The notes beneath the pieces were generated by a model. That model was not told the DNA's origin, made no database searches, and saw only the letters and a list, made by a program, of their open reading frames with translations. Shown here in pieces: positions 4,836 through 45,353 of a DNA stretch of 64,000 nucleotides (position 1 is its first letter; each line of letters opens with the position of its first letter). The stretch comes from a virus. The position numbers and the translations under genes were made by a program. The stretch spans positions 1-64,000 of IMG/VR virus record IMGVR_UViG_3300032316_000329; one strand, 5' to 3'.

Positions 4836-6076
4836 TGCTTAAATTCAAACAACACCTAACCGAGTCTGCCGCAGAGAAAGATCGTCACCTCACACATATC
4901 GAGGATGCCGTTCTTGAAGGTGGTGTTGCTGGCACTCGCAATGCTATACAGTTTTTAATCTCGTTAAGAGATATGTTTGCCGATGATGGCAAAACACTAA
5001 AAGAGGCCCGTGGTGGTCTTATTCTTAGAACTAAGTTCGATGGTGCACCGGCACTCTATGCCGGTATCAATCCTGAAAACGGAAAGTTCTTCGTAGGTTC
5101 TAAATCAATATTTGCCAAGAATGCCAAACTTAACTACACCGTTGCTGATATTCGGAGTAATCATAGCGGTGGTTTGGCAGAAAAGTTAGAGACTGCGTTG
5201 AAATACCTACCAGAACTAGGTATTACTGATATCATTCATGGTGATTTTATGTATTCACGAAATGAACTAAAATCGGAAACCATAGATGGTAAAAAATATA
5301 TCACGTTTCGCCCTAACACGATCACGTATGCTGTTCCGGAAGGTACGACACTCTCTCGCCAGGTACTTTCTTCTCGAATGGGAATTGTTTTTCACACTAC
5401 TTATCACGGTTCCTCTATGTCTACTCTCCAAACTCATTTCGATGTTAACATAGGGAAATTAAGACCATCTAAGAATGTTTGGTATCGTGAGAACAAGTTT
5501 ATGGATGTTACTGGTCGTGCCACGTTAACAAAATCTGAGAACGATAGACTATCCAGTATTCTCACACAGGCCGGTGGTTTGTTTAGAACCATCCCTGCTT
5601 CTCTATTAAATCAACTCGCAACAAATGAAACATACCGTGTGCCTATTATGACCTATATGAACCAGAAGGTTCGTGCTGGTCAGCATATGGGACCAAACTT
5701 TGTTAATGAGGTTATGAATTTCATTGCGGATAAATACAACAAATCTATTAATGATGCCAAACGTCCTGATACCAAAGCCAATCGTAAAAGAGAAAAAGAT
5801 GCGATTATGCGTTGGTTTCATCAGAACAGGGTCGGACTAAAAAGCATTTTCGAGTTGCAGAACCTTTTCATTGATGCCAAAACTATGTTGATTCGTAAGT
5901 TTAATCAGGTTAACGATATTGGTACCTTTATTCATACACCTGAAGGTGGTTTTAGAGTAACTACACCAGAAGGATATGTTGCTGCTTGGAGTTCTGGTGG
6001 TGATGCTGTTAAATTGGTAGACCGTATGGAATTTTCAAGAACAAACTTCCTCGCCACAAAGAACTGGGGAAAATGA
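4835..6076 (+). CDS. Capsid-targeted ligase-like nucleotidyltransferase (DUF6267-like)
   Basis: A 413-residue protein related in motif pattern to covalent nucleotidyltransferases (DNA/RNA ligases). Motif I appears as TKFDGAPALYAG (Lys67-x-Asp69-Gly70), a motif III-like segment as DIIHGDFMYS (about 132-141), and a motif IV-like segment as GIVFHTTYHG (about 183-192). The N-terminus MLKFKQHLTE|S resembles the T4 capsid-targeting sequence and ends in the (L/I)xE prohead-protease signature. The inference is a nucleotidyltransferase packaged inside the head and delivered with the DNA. Nothing shows the substrate. The Lys pair of ligase motif V is not obvious. It overlaps both neighbours by a few bases, so the operon is tight. 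Confidence 0.6.
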   Translation: MLKFKQHLTESAAEKDRHLTHIEDAVLEGGVAGTRNAIQFLISLRDMFADDGKTLKEARGGLILRTKFDGAPALYAGINPENGKFFVGSKSIFAKNAKLNYTVADIRSNHSGGLAEKLETALKYLPELGITDIIHGDFMYSRNELKSETIDGKKYITFRPNTITYAVPEGTTLSRQVLSSRMGIVFHTTYHGSSMSTLQTHFDVNIGKLRPSKNVWYRENKFMDVTGRATLTKSENDRLSSILTQAGGLFRTIPASLLNQLATNETYRVPIMTYMNQKVRAGQHMGPNFVNEVMNFIADKYNKSINDAKRPDTKANRKREKDAIMRWFHQNRVGLKSIFELQNLFIDAKTMLIRKFNQVNDIGTFIHTPEGGFRVTTPEGYVAAWSSGGDAVKLVDRMEFSRTNFLATKNWGK

Positions 6077-34773: not shown

Positions 34774-36411
34774 ATGTCAGTAGATTACATAGTCAACGAA
34801 CACCAAATTTTACCGGAGGGTAATGTTAGGGGTTCAGCAGTATTCGATGTTACAATGGTGGCCACCTCCGATGGGCAACTCGTTACAAATACTAATCCTC
34901 TACCCGTTACCCTCGGCAACTCAGCTATTCAAATTACCTCTAATAATGTCAATGTTACTGTTCCAAATACTATTACGGTAAACTCATCAACTAATGATCC
35001 AATTCACGTTCATATTACTGAAGTCGGGGCAAGCGGTAATCTACAGTTTTCTTACATGCCTATTGGTGGTAACGTCAGTATCTTCCAAAGCACAGGTGCT
35101 GCTATCAATACAGCAAATCCTCTACCGGTCACCGCTGCTATTACAGGCACAGTAACCTCCACTCCAGTAGCAGGCGCATCTGATGCTTTTGGTAGGTTGA
35201 GAACCTCAGATGGATTTACTCTTGGTGACTATAAACACACATATGGTATTGATCCAAACTTCATTGATGAATTTGGTCCTGGTGCTAATGTCATTCACAT
35301 ATCTAATCAAGCAGCAGCCAGATTATCAACAAACAATAGCCCAAGCAGTTATGCTATTCACCAGACGAAACAATATCACAACTATATGCCTGGTAAAAGT
35401 CAGCTAATCAAATCAACAATCAATTTCTATAATGCTACTGCTAACGTAACAAAGAGAACCGGTTACTTTGATGCTAACAATGGTATCTACTTTGAGCAAG
35501 CAGGCAATAGCACATTAAGTCTGGTTATTAGATCGGATACAAGTGGCACAATCACAGAACGCAGAGTACCACAAGCACAATGGAATATGGATACTTGTAA
35601 TACATCCATCACTGGTACTGTAACAGGTAACGTTGGTAGTTTTAATCTTGATATCAGCAATACACAAATCTTCTGGACCGATTTTCAATGGCTCGGTGTT
35701 GGTCGTGTAAGAACAGGTTTCGTACATAATGGTAATCTAATTGTAGCACATGAGTTCTATAACAGCAATTTCTTACCAACCGTTTATATGAGTAATCCTA
35801 ATCTACCAGTTCGTTGTGAGATTAGAAACACTGGTGCCACCACTGGTGCTTACTTTGACCAAATTTGTGCCACTGTTATTTCAGAAGGTGGATATGTTGA
35901 GAGTGGTATTGACTGGGCTATTACAACAGGTAGTGCGGCACAATCAGTAACAACAGCAAGCGGTAACTATCCTCTTATAGCAATTCGTCTAAAGAATAAC
36001 TTTAGAACATATCCAAACAGAGTTACCGTTCGTATGGGCAATATAAATGTGTATGCTGAAAACTATCCAGCATATTGGAAACTTATTAAGTTAGCCAATA
36101 CTGCCGGTATAACGCTTGCTAACACAACATGGATTAGTGCTGATACCGACTCAGCAGTTGAGTATAATCTAACAGGAACTGCTATGGTGGGTGGTGATGA
36201 GATGGATAATGGTATTGTTGGCACAAGCAGTCCTGGTGGTTCCGCTAAAGGTACAGGAACATCACCTGTCAATAATCCAAGTAGTGCCAAGAAAAACTTT
36301 ATTGCTCAAAACATCGCATCATCCAACTCTGAAATATATGTAGTTGCTATTCAAGCGATTGGCGGAACATCCGATGTATGGGCAGGCATTCAATGGAGAG
36401 AGATTTACTAA
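34774..36411 (+). CDS. Virion structural protein (fibre/decoration-like)
   Basis: A 545-residue beta-rich protein with Asn, Thr, Ser and Gly dominance and no charge clusters, typical of phage surface fibres or capsid decorations. The N-terminal 125 residues contain repeats of the form TNTNPLPVTLG / NTANPLPVTAAI. The remainder resembles a large beta-sandwich domain conserved in structural proteins of T4-like phages. The late-type promoter upstream supports expression with virion genes. The precise location on the particle is unknown. Confidence 0.6.
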   Translation: MSVDYIVNEHQILPEGNVRGSAVFDVTMVATSDGQLVTNTNPLPVTLGNSAIQITSNNVNVTVPNTITVNSSTNDPIHVHITEVGASGNLQFSYMPIGGNVSIFQSTGAAINTANPLPVTAAITGTVTSTPVAGASDAFGRLRTSDGFTLGDYKHTYGIDPNFIDEFGPGANVIHISNQAAARLSTNNSPSSYAIHQTKQYHNYMPGKSQLIKSTINFYNATANVTKRTGYFDANNGIYFEQAGNSTLSLVIRSDTSGTITERRVPQAQWNMDTCNTSITGTVTGNVGSFNLDISNTQIFWTDFQWLGVGRVRTGFVHNGNLIVAHEFYNSNFLPTVYMSNPNLPVRCEIRNTGATTGAYFDQICATVISEGGYVESGIDWAITTGSAAQSVTTASGNYPLIAIRLKNNFRTYPNRVTVRMGNINVYAENYPAYWKLIKLANTAGITLANTTWISADTDSAVEYNLTGTAMVGGDEMDNGIVGTSSPGGSAKGTGTSPVNNPSSAKKNFIAQNIASSNSEIYVVAIQAIGGTSDVWAGIQWREIY

Positions 36412-36413
36412 GG

Positions 36414-36442
36414 TTGACAACTATATATTTGGAGTATATAAT
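36414..36442 (+). promoter_or_regulatory. Sigma70 early promoter for the nuclease gene
   Basis: TTGACA (36414-36419), 17 bases and TATAAT (36437-36442), a consensus promoter starting two bases after the virion-protein stop codon. Confidence 0.85.
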
Positions 36443-36481
36443 GGACGAAACAGTTGAGGAAGACTTTGATGTTGGATGTTA

Positions 36482-37162
36482 ATGAAAACTTTTAATCATG
36501 TAAACACCCAAAAATCTTTATGTGAACTGAATAGAGAAGAATATAATGGAAAACGATACTATGTCTCTCCAAACGGCATCAAATTACCATCCGTCACAAC
36601 TTTTTTATCGCATTTCAAAGGCGACTCCATCCTCAAATGGAGGAAAAAAGTGGGGGAAGAAGAAGCGAATAAAATATCAGCAAGAGCAAGTAGAAGAGGT
36701 ACAAAATTTCATTCGCTTATGGAATCTTATATCTCTAATCAGGAAAGGGATAGTTTTCTGAATGAAAACGTGATGCCTGATATGGTTCAGGCCTTTAATC
36801 AGTTTATTCCTATTCTTGACAGGGTTGATAATGTTCACTATTTGGAAACTATGCTCTATTCTGAAACACTCGGTCTTGCTGGCCAAGTGGACTGTATTGC
36901 CGAGTTTGATGGTATTCCTTCTATCATTGACTTTAAAACTTCTCTAAAACCTAAGAAAGAGGAATGGATTCTCAATTACTTTGAGCAATGTACCTGTTAT
37001 TCTTTGATGTATGAAGAAATGACTGGTGTGCAGGCCAAACAGATTGTGGTTCTTATATCAGTAGACCATGAAGAACCGCAGGTGTTTGTTAAGAGTCGTA
37101 GAGAATACATTCCTGAACTGGCCAATAAGGTCAAACAGTTTAAATCGGAGCATAATTTATGA
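36482..37162 (+). CDS. Cas4/RecB-like PD-(D/E)xK exonuclease
   Basis: A 226-residue nuclease of the RecB/Cas4-like type. Segment RASRRGTKFHSLMESY holds the conserved Gly-x-x-x-H motif, GQVDCIAEFDG the catalytic Asp and IIDFKTS the (D/E)xK; YFEQCTCYSLMYEE is the QxxxY helix. Phage members act in recombination or DNA end processing. The start is uncertain: the ATG at 36482 has GGA at suitable distance, while the in-frame ATG at 36476 does not. The stop overlaps the lipoprotein start. Confidence 0.8.
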   Translation: MKTFNHVNTQKSLCELNREEYNGKRYYVSPNGIKLPSVTTFLSHFKGDSILKWRKKVGEEEANKISARASRRGTKFHSLMESYISNQERDSFLNENVMPDMVQAFNQFIPILDRVDNVHYLETMLYSETLGLAGQVDCIAEFDGIPSIIDFKTSLKPKKEEWILNYFEQCTCYSLMYEEMTGVQAKQIVVLISVDHEEPQVFVKSRREYIPELANKVKQFKSEHNL

Positions 37163-37275
37163 AATACTTCCTACTAATAATGGTGTTTCTTTGTCTTGGC
37201 TTGTCTGGTTGCCATGAAGCCCTCGTCATCGGTGATTGCGCTATACGGGGTTCAACTAAAAATCCATGCAAATAA
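37159..37275 (+). CDS. Small lipoprotein
   Basis: A 38-residue protein with a lipoprotein signal peptide: MKYFLLIMVFLCLGLSGC ends in the lipobox LSGC (Cys18). The mature part has only 21 residues with two further cysteines. Size and topology suit an outer-membrane spanin (Rz1-type), but these usually lie next to the inner-membrane spanin, here 21 kb away. Superinfection exclusion is another option. It starts in an ATGA overlap with the nuclease stop. Confidence 0.5.
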   Translation: MKYFLLIMVFLCLGLSGCHEALVIGDCAIRGSTKNPCK

Positions 37276-37342
37276 TGGTTCAACAGACCATCGTGGTGTT
37301 GCTGCACCACAAATGGAAGAGTTTGAGAACCAAGTAGAATAA
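37214..37342 (+). CDS. Possible nested small ORF
   Basis: A 42-residue ORF starting inside the lipoprotein gene in another frame. Its C-terminal half (NNGSTDHRGVAAPQMEEFEN) reads like a real protein, but the N-terminal half may be incidental and there is no ribosome binding site. It may be the remnant of an older gene, or be joined by a frameshift. Confidence 0.25.
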   Translation: MKPSSSVIALYGVQLKIHANNGSTDHRGVAAPQMEEFENQVE

Positions 37343-37367
37343 ACTTGCCAAAAATTTCAATATATGT

Positions 37368-37375
37368 TATAAATA
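37368..37375 (+). promoter_or_regulatory. TATAAATA promoter element before the tmRNA
   Basis: An exact late-type octamer whose predicted transcript start (about 37382) coincides with the beginning of the tmRNA precursor. It could also serve as a sigma70 -10, but no good -35 is seen. Confidence 0.5.
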
Positions 37376-37380
37376 TATCT

Positions 37381-37625
37381 GCTTAGGTCGTTGAGAGACG
37401 TAGAATAAGCGGAAGAGACCTCGGGGCGGTACCGAGCGGGTCCACCATAAGCACATTAAGGTATGTTTAATTGGGCCCGAAATAGGATTGATCTACGTGG
37501 TAAAGGCGTAAGGAGACCGAAAGCAAACGTTAGGTGCCAACGATAACATTGCACCATTTGATATTGCTCTAGCAGCATAATCATTGGGCTGGTGACTTGC
37601 CTAGAAACAGAAAAGTCACACCTTT
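37381..37625 (+). ncRNA. ssrA: Circularly permuted (two-piece) tmRNA
   Basis: The acceptor piece comes first: CGGGTCC at 37437-37443, A, then encoded CCA (37445-37447). After a 25-base spacer the coding piece starts GGGCCCG (37473-37479), which pairs with CGGGTCC to make a 7-bp acceptor stem whose third pair is G-U, the alanyl-tRNA synthetase identity element. A D-arm-like AGGATTGAT follows. TCTACGT (37492-37498) pairs with ACGTAGA (37398-37404) as helix P2. The resume codon GCC (37536) opens a tag of 14 codons, ANDNIAPFDIALAA, ending in TAA (37578-37580). This order is that of alphaproteobacterial tmRNA, which rescues stalled ribosomes and tags proteins for proteolysis. The T-arm (CTCGG, 7-base loop, CCGAG) lacks the usual TTC loop. 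End positions are approximate; a 7-bp hairpin at 37592-37619 closes the 3' side. Confidence 0.9.
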
Positions 37626-37670
37626 TCCATCACTGTGTTTTACCGCACATGCAAAATTGACTCTTCCATA

Positions 37671-37677
37671 CTAAATA
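37671..37677 (+). promoter_or_regulatory. Late-type promoter element CTAAATA
   Basis: CTAAATA lies 25 bases before the next ATG, with CAGGAGAGAG as ribosome binding site between them. Confidence 0.5.
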
Positions 37678-37702
37678 ATTTTGTAAGAAACAGGAGAGAG
37701 TT

Positions 37703-37804
37703 ATGATTACCTTACTAAAAACCACCTTGACAGTTCTAGTAGTTTCTGCTATAATCTTTCCTGTAATGACACTTGCCGCACACGCACAAGTCATTTTCTG
37801 CTAA
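37703..37804 (+). CDS. Signal-peptide-like mini-protein
   Basis: A 33-residue peptide that is almost entirely a Sec signal peptide (Lys, a hydrophobic core, then AHA before QVIFC). Cleavage would leave five residues. It has a strong ribosome binding site and its own late-type promoter. It may act as a membrane peptide. Function unknown. Confidence 0.5.
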   Translation: MITLLKTTLTVLVVSAIIFPVMTLAAHAQVIFC

Positions 37805-37820
37805 TACATAGGACTATATT

Positions 37821-38045
37821 ATGACAACTGATGAAATCAATAACTTTTCCATGGCCATAGAGGAACTTGTCTATATGAAGGACGTTCCTTATATTGATGC
37901 AATTGTTATGTATTGTGAAGAAACAGGATTTGAAGTTGAAATGGCCGCCAAACTGGTCTCTGGTGTTCTAAAATCCAAAATTAGAATTGAAGCGGAAGAC
38001 CTTCACTATATCGCAAAGTCAAACACCTCAAAACTACCAATCTAA
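37821..38045 (+). CDS. 33: Late transcription co-activator, gp33-like
   Basis: A 74-residue helical protein similar to the gp33 proteins of T4-like cyanophages: VPYIDAIVMYCEETGFEVEM, AAKLVSGVLKSKIRIEAEDL, ending TSKLPI. In T4, gp33 bridges RNA polymerase and the sliding clamp so that gp55-containing polymerase recognises TATAAATA late promoters. Presence of this gene supports the late-promoter calls in this window. It precedes gp59 and gp32 as in related phages. Confidence 0.78.
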   Translation: MTTDEINNFSMAIEELVYMKDVPYIDAIVMYCEETGFEVEMAAKLVSGVLKSKIRIEAEDLHYIAKSNTSKLPI

Positions 38046-38048
38046 ACT

Positions 38049-38660
38049 ATGAAACATTTCACCGGATATGGTGCTTATCTATTGTTCTTGGCATTAAGAA
38101 CCCATTTCACTAATGCCAAGTATGATTTCTTTCAAATGCATGGTAAACTCCGTGCAACAAAGGAGTCTTATATAAAACGCAATGATAAGTCCTTCTTTGA
38201 CAAACTGGCCAGAGATTATTCCTGTGAGAATTTGAGAGACTTTTATGTTGCCAACTTTCTTGAAGATAAACACTATGTAACGGAGTTATTAGATGATACC
38301 GCCGAACGAAACTACCGAGAATATCAGAGAAGAAGGCAGTCCCTCACATATATCTTTACCAGCGAATTGGAGGAGTTATTTGATAGTGGTATTACAAGGC
38401 CTTTTAAATTTAACGATGGCGAGTATCCTGATATTGTCAATCTGTATCTTAGGCATGTCCTCTCTCCCGAAACTCTGGTAATCATAAACGATTTTATACC
38501 CTTTGAGGATAAGTTTAATAAATACCTTAGTGATGATATATTATGGTCTAAGGTATCGTTGAAACTTAGAAAATATAAACCATTCGTTCATTATGATAGG
38601 AATAAGGTGAAATCTATCCTCAAGGAGAAATTACATGATACTAGAGGGAGAAGCATCTGA
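38049..38660 (+). CDS. 59: Helicase loader, gp59-like
   Basis: A 203-residue protein with the gp59 signature: FTGYGAYLLFLALRTHFTNA, then YDFFQMHGKLRATKES and YIKRNDKSFFDKLARDY. In T4, gp59 loads the gp41 helicase onto forks coated with gp32. It follows gp33 by three bases and is close to gp32. The 3' end overlaps a small ORF. Confidence 0.85.
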   Translation: MKHFTGYGAYLLFLALRTHFTNAKYDFFQMHGKLRATKESYIKRNDKSFFDKLARDYSCENLRDFYVANFLEDKHYVTELLDDTAERNYREYQRRRQSLTYIFTSELEELFDSGITRPFKFNDGEYPDIVNLYLRHVLSPETLVIINDFIPFEDKFNKYLSDDILWSKVSLKLRKYKPFVHYDRNKVKSILKEKLHDTRGRSI

Positions 38661-38817
38661 TATTTTACATGATTGGGTTAAAAAGCGATATAATATTTTT
38701 TATAAGTATGACGGTCAAAAGGTATTCATGATTGAAATATATGAACCAGCGACAAAACGAACTTACCTACCAAATGAAGAAACAAAATATTTTCTAGAGA
38801 TTATTTTTTCATACTAA
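38635..38817 (+). CDS. Small protein between gp59 and gp32
   Basis: A 60-residue protein with a strong ribosome binding site (AAGGAG) inside the end of gp59. It is aromatic-rich (WVKKRYNIFYKYDGQKVFMI then EIYEPATKRTY). The stop is contained in a CTAAATA element. Function unknown. Confidence 0.55.
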   Translation: MILEGEASDILHDWVKKRYNIFYKYDGQKVFMIEIYEPATKRTYLPNEETKYFLEIIFSY

Positions 38818-38853
38818 ATAACACTTGACAGGGGCCCTGGCCCCTGTTATAAT
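38814..38853 (+). promoter_or_regulatory. Dual gp32 promoter with palindromic spacer
   Basis: A CTAAATA late-type element (38814-38820) is followed by TTGACA (38825-38830), 17 bases and TATAAT (38848-38853), a consensus sigma70 promoter. The spacer is an inverted repeat with 9-bp arms, ACAGGGGCC (38828-38836) and GGCCCCTGT (38839-38847), separated by CT. Located between -35 and -10, it is an apt operator position. Confidence 0.8.
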
Positions 38854-38870
38854 ATATCATATTGTTATGG

Positions 38871-38910
38871 AAACGTGGACAATATAAAACATACAACATA
38901 TACAACGTTT
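38871..38910 (+). promoter_or_regulatory. Structured gp32 mRNA leader
   Basis: AAACGT (38871-38876) can pair with ACGTTT (38905-38910) around an A-rich, mostly unstructured loop, just ahead of the AAGGAG site. T4 gp32 represses its own translation by binding an unstructured leader; a similar role is possible here. Confidence 0.35.
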
Positions 38911-38926
38911 ATACAAGGAGCATACT

Positions 38927-39874
38927 ATGAATTTTGCTAATCTCAAAAAGCAGTCCAAAGACTTTGGTAACCTACTAAAAGAAGTGGACAAACTCGCTAA
39001 TCCCACCTACGAAAAGGACGAAACTGCCGACCTTTATTGGAAGCCAACACCAGATAAGACTGGTAATGCCTTGGCGGTTATTCGTTTCCTACCTGGTGCT
39101 GCCGTTGATGGTGATGATGCCCTTCCTTGGTGTCAGTATTGGGATCATGGATTCCAGAACAAGACAACAGGTAAGTGGTATATTGAGAAGTCACTAACGA
39201 CCCTCAACCAGAAAGATCCAGTTTCGGAACTAAACTCACAACTCTGGAACTCCTCGCAGGATGATAATGGTCCTGAGCGCAAGCAGGCCCGTGACCAGAA
39301 GCGTCGTCTACATTATGTGGCCAATGTTCTTGTTATCAACGACCCGCAGAACAAGGGTGCCGAGGGTAAGGTGTTTCTCTATAAGTTTGGTAAGAAAATC
39401 TTTGACAAGATTACCAAGATGATGAACCCAGACCTAGAGTCCGAACAGGCAGTAAATCCATTTGACCTTTGGAAAGGTGCCAATTTTAAGTTAAAGGTTA
39501 CCCGTCAGAATGTCAATATGGGTGGTCGTAATGTATCATTCCCTAACTATGATGAATCGGTGTTCCTAACACCAGGTCCATTAAGTGAAGATGATGCCGA
39601 ACTAGAGCAAATCTGGAAGGCAGAACATTCTCTAAAAGAGATTGTTGATCCTAAGCAATTCAAGACCTATGAGGAATTGAAGAGGCGCCTTGAAGATGTT
39701 ATGGGTTATGGTGCAACTTCTGCACCAGCACCAAAGGCCGCTCCAGTTGAAGAGGAAGCACCTTGGGTAGAAACACCTAAGCCAGTTGCTACCAAGCAGA
39801 AGGCACCTGCGCCTGTTGTTGAGGAAGAAGAGGACGAGGATCTCGCTATGTTTCGTAAGTTGGCTGAGGACTGA
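38927..39874 (+). CDS. 32: Single-stranded DNA-binding protein gp32
   Basis: A 315-residue gp32. The N-terminal cooperativity region (FANLKKQSKDFGNLLKEVDK) precedes an OB core (AVIRFLPG, EKSLTTLNQKDPVSELNSQL, KRRLHYVANVLVINDPQN, FLYKFGKKIFDKI). An Ala/Pro-rich linker and a very acidic C-terminus (VEEEEDEDLAMFRKLAED) recruit replication partners. It coats single-stranded DNA in replication and recombination. Unlike coliphage T4, there is no cysteine/histidine zinc cluster, as in cyanophage gp32. Confidence 0.93.
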   Translation: MNFANLKKQSKDFGNLLKEVDKLANPTYEKDETADLYWKPTPDKTGNALAVIRFLPGAAVDGDDALPWCQYWDHGFQNKTTGKWYIEKSLTTLNQKDPVSELNSQLWNSSQDDNGPERKQARDQKRRLHYVANVLVINDPQNKGAEGKVFLYKFGKKIFDKITKMMNPDLESEQAVNPFDLWKGANFKLKVTRQNVNMGGRNVSFPNYDESVFLTPGPLSEDDAELEQIWKAEHSLKEIVDPKQFKTYEELKRRLEDVMGYGATSAPAPKAAPVEEEAPWVETPKPVATKQKAPAPVVEEEEDEDLAMFRKLAED

Positions 39875-44582: not shown

Positions 44583-45353
44583 TTAGTATCCGTTTCGAAC
44601 AATATTTTCTTTGCCAATAATTCTCATTTCTTTAAGAATAAATGTTAGCATGGCAGAAACAGGATGTCCGTTAGAGAAGGTACTGAATTGTCCTTGTGGT
44701 GCATAATTTACATCAATAGATTCTATAACACCTCTAGCAATCTTAGGTATTGCGTCATTTATTCTTGCTTGACCGTTAGTAATGTTGTAAAAATCTATTT
44801 TAAATTCCGAAGGTGATTTCAGAAAGTTTCCGGTTGTTAAATAATTTATCTGATTTCCGATACCTATGTAACTTTGATTTGGATCATTTGAACCGATAAT
44901 TTCTGGCTCGGCATGATACCTTAATAGTTTAATAATCTGCTGCATATCTAATGATTCTTCATATGAAGAAGGAGCAAACAAAAATGTAAATTGAAATGTT
45001 CTCAATTGAACGTTTCTGAAAAGTATTTCAACTTTTGGATTAATAGAACGACCAGCCATTTGCATACCGGTGTTAATAGCAGATGTAATACCTCCGATGC
45101 CAAGAGTGCCTGCAATTGCTTTAGTCATTAAAACTTCAGCATAATCATACTTTTGTTCCCATACAAGAGGACTATTTTGGCCGCCGCCAGGAATGAATAA
45201 TGTTATAACACTACTAACAGATGTGTCGCCGGATTCATAACATTTGATATTCATCCAATGGCCTTGACCTTGTGATTCATCTTGTAAATCACTTGGAAAA
45301 ACTAATCTCGTCAAACCTTCTTGAAATGTGGATAAATTACCCGGTAATGCCAT
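44583..45353 (-). CDS. 48: Baseplate tail-tube cap, gp48-like
   Basis: A 256-residue protein. RLVFPSDLQDE...GHWMNIKCYE at the N-terminus and the tube-fold block ILFRNVQLRTFQFTFLFAPS, then EESLDMQQIIKLLRYH, match gp48 of T4-like phages. In T4 it sits on the hub and templates the tail tube. First gene of the minus-strand operon, with GGAGG before the ATG. Confidence 0.75.
   Translation of the reverse strand: MALPGNLSTFQEGLTRLVFPSDLQDESQGQGHWMNIKCYESGDTSVSSVITLFIPGGGQNSPLVWEQKYDYAEVLMTKAIAGTLGIGGITSAINTGMQMAGRSINPKVEILFRNVQLRTFQFTFLFAPSSYEESLDMQQIIKLLRYHAEPEIIGSNDPNQSYIGIGNQINYLTTGNFLKSPSEFKIDFYNITNGQARINDAIPKIARGVIESIDVNYAPQGQFSTFSNGHPVSAMLTFILKEMRIIGKENIVRNGY

Follow-up and report, generated by a model that had tools for sequence, protein, structure and literature searches.

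A permuted, alphaproteobacterial-type tmRNA gene ahead of gp33 in a T4-like phage, with a putative composite promoter

What does the DNA just upstream of gp33 encode in a T4-like phage, and is the product likely to work? The phage is represented by an IMG/VR virus record of 165,114 bases, of which we analyzed a 64-kb stretch (64,000 bases, hereafter the window). Phage-encoded two-piece tmRNAs are known, though viewed as rare oddities with no established use. The initial annotation had proposed such a gene here, of alphaproteobacterial type and with its own tag, and had named the Rfam alpha_tmRNA model as a way to check it. A cmscan search of the whole window against all Rfam families returned two matches above the gathering score: alpha_tmRNA (RF01849; 37341-37622, 103.3 bits against a cut-off of 50, E 4e-27) and tmRNA_permuted (RF04321; 37386-37580, 90.6 bits against a cut-off of 47). 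The gene spans positions 37386-37622 on the plus strand, which also carries gp33 and the two promoter motifs just upstream of the gene. Its alpha_tmRNA score is lower than those of bacterial alpha tmRNAs (about 195-313 bits for the ones listed). ARAGORN, run on the window, missed the gene; it called a permuted tmRNA in most gp33-linked relatives and also missed those of L010, L014, L016 and L027, meaning that surveys based on ARAGORN alone overlook some copies, the window's included. The covariance models, together with the covariation described below, back the proposed identity with its ANDN...ALAA tag, and we consider it very likely that this is a working permuted alpha-type ssrA of a T4-like phage, with a composite promoter and a role in tagging.

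The permuted order can be read straight from the sequence as an acceptor 3' strand with CCA, a spacer, the acceptor 5' strand and the tag. The acceptor 3' strand (CGGGUCC, 37437-37443) and 5' strand (GGGCCCG, 37473-37479) form 7/7 pairs with a G-U at the third (G3-U70), and the 3' strand continues into ACCA (37444-37447), the discriminator A plus an encoded CCA; the initial annotation had described each of these elements correctly. It had also placed the 25-nt spacer between the CCA and the acceptor 5' strand at exactly the right coordinates (37448-37472); this spacer would be removed by processing. A D-arm-like segment (AAAUAGGAUUGA, 37480-37491) fits the RF01849 consensus, the T arm (37420-37436) consists of a 5-bp stem and the loop GGCGGUA, and the 3' terminal hairpin (37592-37619) pairs GUGACUU with AAGUCAC around the loop GCCUAGAAACAGAA. 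The gene resembles bacterial alphaproteobacterial ssrA (Caulobacter type, RF01849) in its permuted order, G3-U70 pair, T loop and ANDN tag, and in a 3' hairpin loop that ends in ACAGAA.

We aligned 23 distinct gp33-linked copies, spacer excluded, and counted changes against the family structure. Its 35 pairs are formed in 92.5% of cells compared with 76.7% after shuffling, 22/35 pairs have changed on both sides, and compensatory cells number 125 against 38.9 in shuffles; when partners are slid by 1-3 columns, pairing falls below 50%. All seven acceptor pairs form in all 23 relatives despite a varying 3' strand (CGGGUCC, CUGCUCC, CGCCUCC, CACCUCC or CCGGUCC), and the U-G at pair 3 is invariant (23/23). 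The T stems vary among relatives too, with the T arm paired in 100% of cells and compensatory changes in four of its five pairs. The 3' hairpin is paired in 25/25 sequences, HTVC008M among them, with wholly different stems and a near-constant loop (CCU.G.AACAGAA). Such strong compensatory change across 23 distinct copies points to an old, selected phage gene.

The relatives also define helix P2. Its 3' strand (GGUC, ACGU, GCG and AGA, within 37386-37416) and 5' strand (UCU, CGU, GCGU and GACC, within 37492-37518) pair as 37386-89 with 37515-18, 37398-401 with 37506-09, and 37409-11 plus 37414-16 with 37492-98; across the 23 relatives, 81-100% of cells are paired in each helix, with compensatory changes. 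The 7-bp P2 of the initial annotation (ACGUAGA/UCUACGU) is paired in 39.8% of cells in the same relatives, no better than shuffles, and has to be abandoned for the family P2. That error arose because single-sequence folding, by which the window gene is only mildly stable (z -1.6), prefers the 7-bp helix.

The spacer is hypervariable, ranging from 23 to 242 nt among relatives. Among the spacers we examined (L004, L014, L010 and L031), T-arm-like hairpins occur in those of several phages, for example GGTGG-TTCGATT-CCACC and TGAGG-TTCGATT-CCTCA in L004 and GACGG-TTCAATT-CCGTC in L031, which look like fragments of tRNAs brought in by recombination. The spacers of L020 (within 5521-5931) and L241, which is phage Melnitz (about 1580-1720), hold an open frame after a Shine-Dalgarno-like sequence, and a small gene may thus lie in the spacer that these two phages discard. 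Between the window and L027, identity is 99.3% across the stretch that runs from P2 over the spacer and back into P2, but 69% in the tag region and 74% in gp33, and L010 and L014 have spacer and tag in common while their T arms differ; parts of the tmRNA gene appear to recombine between phages. As for tRNA genes, the near-full-length relatives G002 and G003 have 25-26, and the window's phage (G000) has about 5.

The conserved downstream neighbor is gp33, the late transcription coactivator (37821-38045; phrog_254, E 2e-19). With gp33 as query we retrieved 63 IMG/VR loci and scanned the 33 close ones (68-100% identity): a permuted tmRNA lies upstream of gp33 in 32/33, and the contig of the remaining locus, L007, begins at the expected site of the gene. 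Among distant gp33 loci, L053 and L054 carry an alpha-type gene, L062 a beta-type gene and L064 a partial one, and scans of L039, L041, L042, L044, L047, L052 and L058 found no permuted tmRNA. Three of the latter, L039, L041 and L047, have a glutamine riboswitch at the gp33 locus, in agreement with the published rarity of riboswitch and tmRNA together in such phages. The position of gp33 as the next gene invites the idea of a regulatory link with the tmRNA. About 65 bases ahead of gp33, however, lies an extended site that perfectly resembles a sigma-70 promoter (TTGACA-17-TATAAT, 12/12; 37727-37755), and since gp33 has this site of its own, adjacency alone does not prove such a link. The site falls inside a 33-codon signal-peptide-like frame (37704-37804).

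The initial annotation had called a permuted two-piece tmRNA unusual in a T4-like phage, which does not hold. At least 120 IMG/VR viral contigs match one narrow tmRNA pattern, a 2022 survey listed 53 two-piece tmRNA genes in phage genomes (PMC9004378), and the tmRNA database holds 79 bacteriophage tmRNAs of all forms (PMC11915505). T4-like phages with an alpha-type two-piece tmRNA ahead of gp33 are already in the literature: Melnitz, a T4-like phage of Methylophilales OM43 (MZ577095; PMC9004378), has one annotated at 44732-45184. It differs from the window's gene in its long spacer and in having about 75 nt rather than 56 between acceptor and resume codon. A glutamine riboswitch linked to the Melnitz ssrA has been reported (PMC9004378), and our search for a similar one in window positions 36000-39000 found none. 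The Pelagibacter phage HTVC008M (NC_020484) carries a permuted tmRNA, unannotated in its record, at 145161-145370 upstream of gp33; as in the window, both Rfam models match, and the order PhoH, exonuclease, tmRNA, gp33, gp59, gp32 is similar, whereas its tag, ANFNEYALAA, is short. About 15 viral contigs carry this tag as well. Viral contig L062 (2376-2778, RF01850) shares the position upstream of gp33 but has a tmRNA of the betaproteobacterial subtype, so related phages can have tmRNAs of different subtype at comparable positions. Querying 50,697 phage genomes with the tmRNA at the nucleotide level gave nothing useful, and Caulobacter phage Cr30, checked as a likely relative, has no permuted tmRNA. 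The alphaproteobacterial host to which the gene had been taken to point is weakly founded: Melnitz has the alpha type and a host that is not an alphaproteobacterium (PMC9004378), so the tmRNA subtype is no proof of host.

Just upstream of the gene we identified a putative composite promoter. A sigma-70-like promoter (TTGCCA-17 nt-TATAAA, 37345-37373) has the same arrangement and place in 13/26 gp33-linked relatives (pattern TTG[AC]CN, 16-17 nt, TATAA[AT]); a consensus promoter scanner run on the window did not list it, as that scanner demands T as the last base. Its -10 box is overlapped by a candidate T4-type late promoter, TATAAATA (37368-37375), whose spacing is conserved in relatives. Promoters of this class in T4 have ATAAATA as their core. 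They measure 8 bp, lack a -35 box and are used by gp55 together with gp33 and the sliding clamp (PMC2988020). A single occurrence means nothing by itself, as TATAAATA is found seven times in the window against 7.3 expected. Across copies, however, ATAAATA stands at a fixed upstream distance in 20/20 gp33-linked permuted tmRNAs (those with enough upstream sequence) and 43/57 other viral ones, compared with 0/35 bacterial ones. Counted by independent upstream clusters, the figures are 12/12 gp33-linked and 34/39 other viral, with chance at about 0.3-0.4% per sequence. In L005, a copy with a short flank, the motif is degenerate. Sigma-70 box and ATAAATA overlap in about half of the viral copies. 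A composite promoter, TTGACA-17-TATAAATA, is readable upstream of the Melnitz gene as well, for which the Melnitz paper describes an early promoter alone (PMC9004378); upstream of the HTVC008M gene, ATAAATA was not found. From these motifs we infer that the phage may make its tmRNA both early and late.

The tag frame (37536-37580) opens with the resume codon GCC at 37536 and reads ANDNIAPFDIALAA up to position 37577, followed by the stop TAA (37578-37580), as had been proposed. Position -4 relative to the resume codon (37532) is an adenine, the counterpart of E. coli A86, which is essential there (PMC2481249); all parsed copies have it: 23/23 gp33-linked, 60/60 other viral and 35/35 bacterial. 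The gp33-linked relatives have 14-residue tags ending in LAA, and resume codon, tag frame, A at -4 and LAA ending are retained in every one of them. In the comparison with host tags that had been suggested, the ends (AND..., LAA) prove host-like, whereas length and middle do not: sampled host tags are shorter (9-13 residues, mostly 10-12) and differ in the middle. The viral contigs matched by the narrow tmRNA pattern carry many different tags, and in L087, L092, L106 and L168 the frame reads as an unusually long 29-residue tag (ANDNALSNVTFVDFSAPVTAVNEDFALAA).

The region before the tag is compact. From acceptor to resume codon there are 55-57 nt in gp33-linked copies (56 in the window), compared with 75-84 nt in 35 alphaproteobacterial host genes, which also differ in their higher Rfam scores and in having no late promoter; other viral copies range from 40 to 107 nt, with clusters near 40, 50 and 73-81. 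The gp33-linked group lacks about 20 nt at the usual site of pseudoknot 1, and with only 17 nt from P2 to the resume codon in the window, a host-type pseudoknot 1 does not fit. Given these missing nucleotides and the lower bit score, activity may be reduced. A hairpin (GGUGC/GCACC, 37533-37555) encloses the resume codon and holds its first bases; within the gp33-linked group it scores 16/18 against a shuffled mean of 9.1 and maximum of 14. A second stem (37528-37531/37539-37542) scores 15 against a shuffled mean of 12.6 and maximum of 15, and is not distinguishable from shuffles; that the two might together make an H-type pseudoknot is no more than a suggestion. The late or composite promoter and the shortened pre-tag region seem new, being undescribed in the open-licence literature as far as we searched.

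Established knowledge of tmRNAs suggests how the gene would act. Transcription would start from the composite sigma-70/T4-late promoter, and the spacer would be cut out by the tRNA-processing enzymes of the host, leaving two RNA pieces joined through the acceptor stem and P2. The host's alanyl-tRNA synthetase would recognize G3-U70 and charge the RNA with alanine, and the host's SmpB would bring the charged RNA to stalled ribosomes; a search of five phage records, the window's phage among them, found no SmpB gene, while the same search was positive in 10/14 control genomes. ANDNIAPFDIALAA would then be added to stalled proteins, its LAA end fitting ClpXP-type proteolysis. The likely benefit would be continued recycling of ribosomes and amino acids during mRNA cleavage and the failure of host transcription, also in the late phase of infection. 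The initial annotation had offered sustained rescue or a redirection of tagged proteins as possible functions.

Three other readings have to be set against a working phage tmRNA. The locus could be a fragment of host ssrA, captured for example by imprecise prophage excision and now drifting without function; ssrA fragments in prophages are known (PMC9004378), and the phage gene does score below host genes. Yet both gene ends are complete, the acceptor stem is intact and compensatory change strong in all relatives, the gene keeps its locus across divergent phages, and a phage-type promoter motif stands upstream. Nor does a donor emerge from 84,980 species genomes: the window's exact acceptor/D-arm pattern has no match there, a looser pattern has six, and Rfam scans of three of these loci (L188, L192 and L193) identified genuine host tmRNAs at the two from alphaproteobacteria. 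We regard capture without function as extremely improbable.

The remaining two readings grant the RNA a function other than ordinary tagging. It might act as a decoy or inhibitor that draws SmpB or AlaRS away from the host tmRNA instead of rescuing ribosomes, much as phage DS6A encodes a tag-less tmRNA that inhibits the endogenous one (PMC11915505); the absent space for pseudoknot 1 would fit such a role, as would the sharing of host SmpB implied by our failure to find a phage SmpB in the records searched. A decoy, however, needs none of the features that all gp33-linked copies keep, namely tag frame, resume codon, A at -4 and LAA, and the DS6A tmRNA, unlike the window's, has no tag at all. 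Alternatively, the altered tag might give stalled proteins another fate, stabilizing them or routing them to a phage partner rather than to ordinary proteolysis, as its 14 residues and divergent middle could suggest; against this, the ends that matter for known recognition are host-like. Since every gp33-linked copy keeps a host-like tag frame, we consider both the decoy and a redirected fate very unlikely, and favor a working, tagging tmRNA.

More broadly, the permuted tmRNAs of T4-like aquatic phages may form a distinct phage-adapted class, expressed late by gp55 and gp33 through a composite promoter beside gp33, with the gp33-linked group working in the absence of a conventional pseudoknot 1 and keeping the resume codon in a covarying hairpin; we see the case for this wider proposal as evenly balanced. 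Expression timing can be tested directly in cultured Melnitz/OM43, with HTVC008M, which lacks the upstream motif, as a contrast. A conserved position, compensatory changes and a late promoter motif missing from bacterial copies indicate that many aquatic T4-like phages keep and control a ribosome-rescue RNA of their own.
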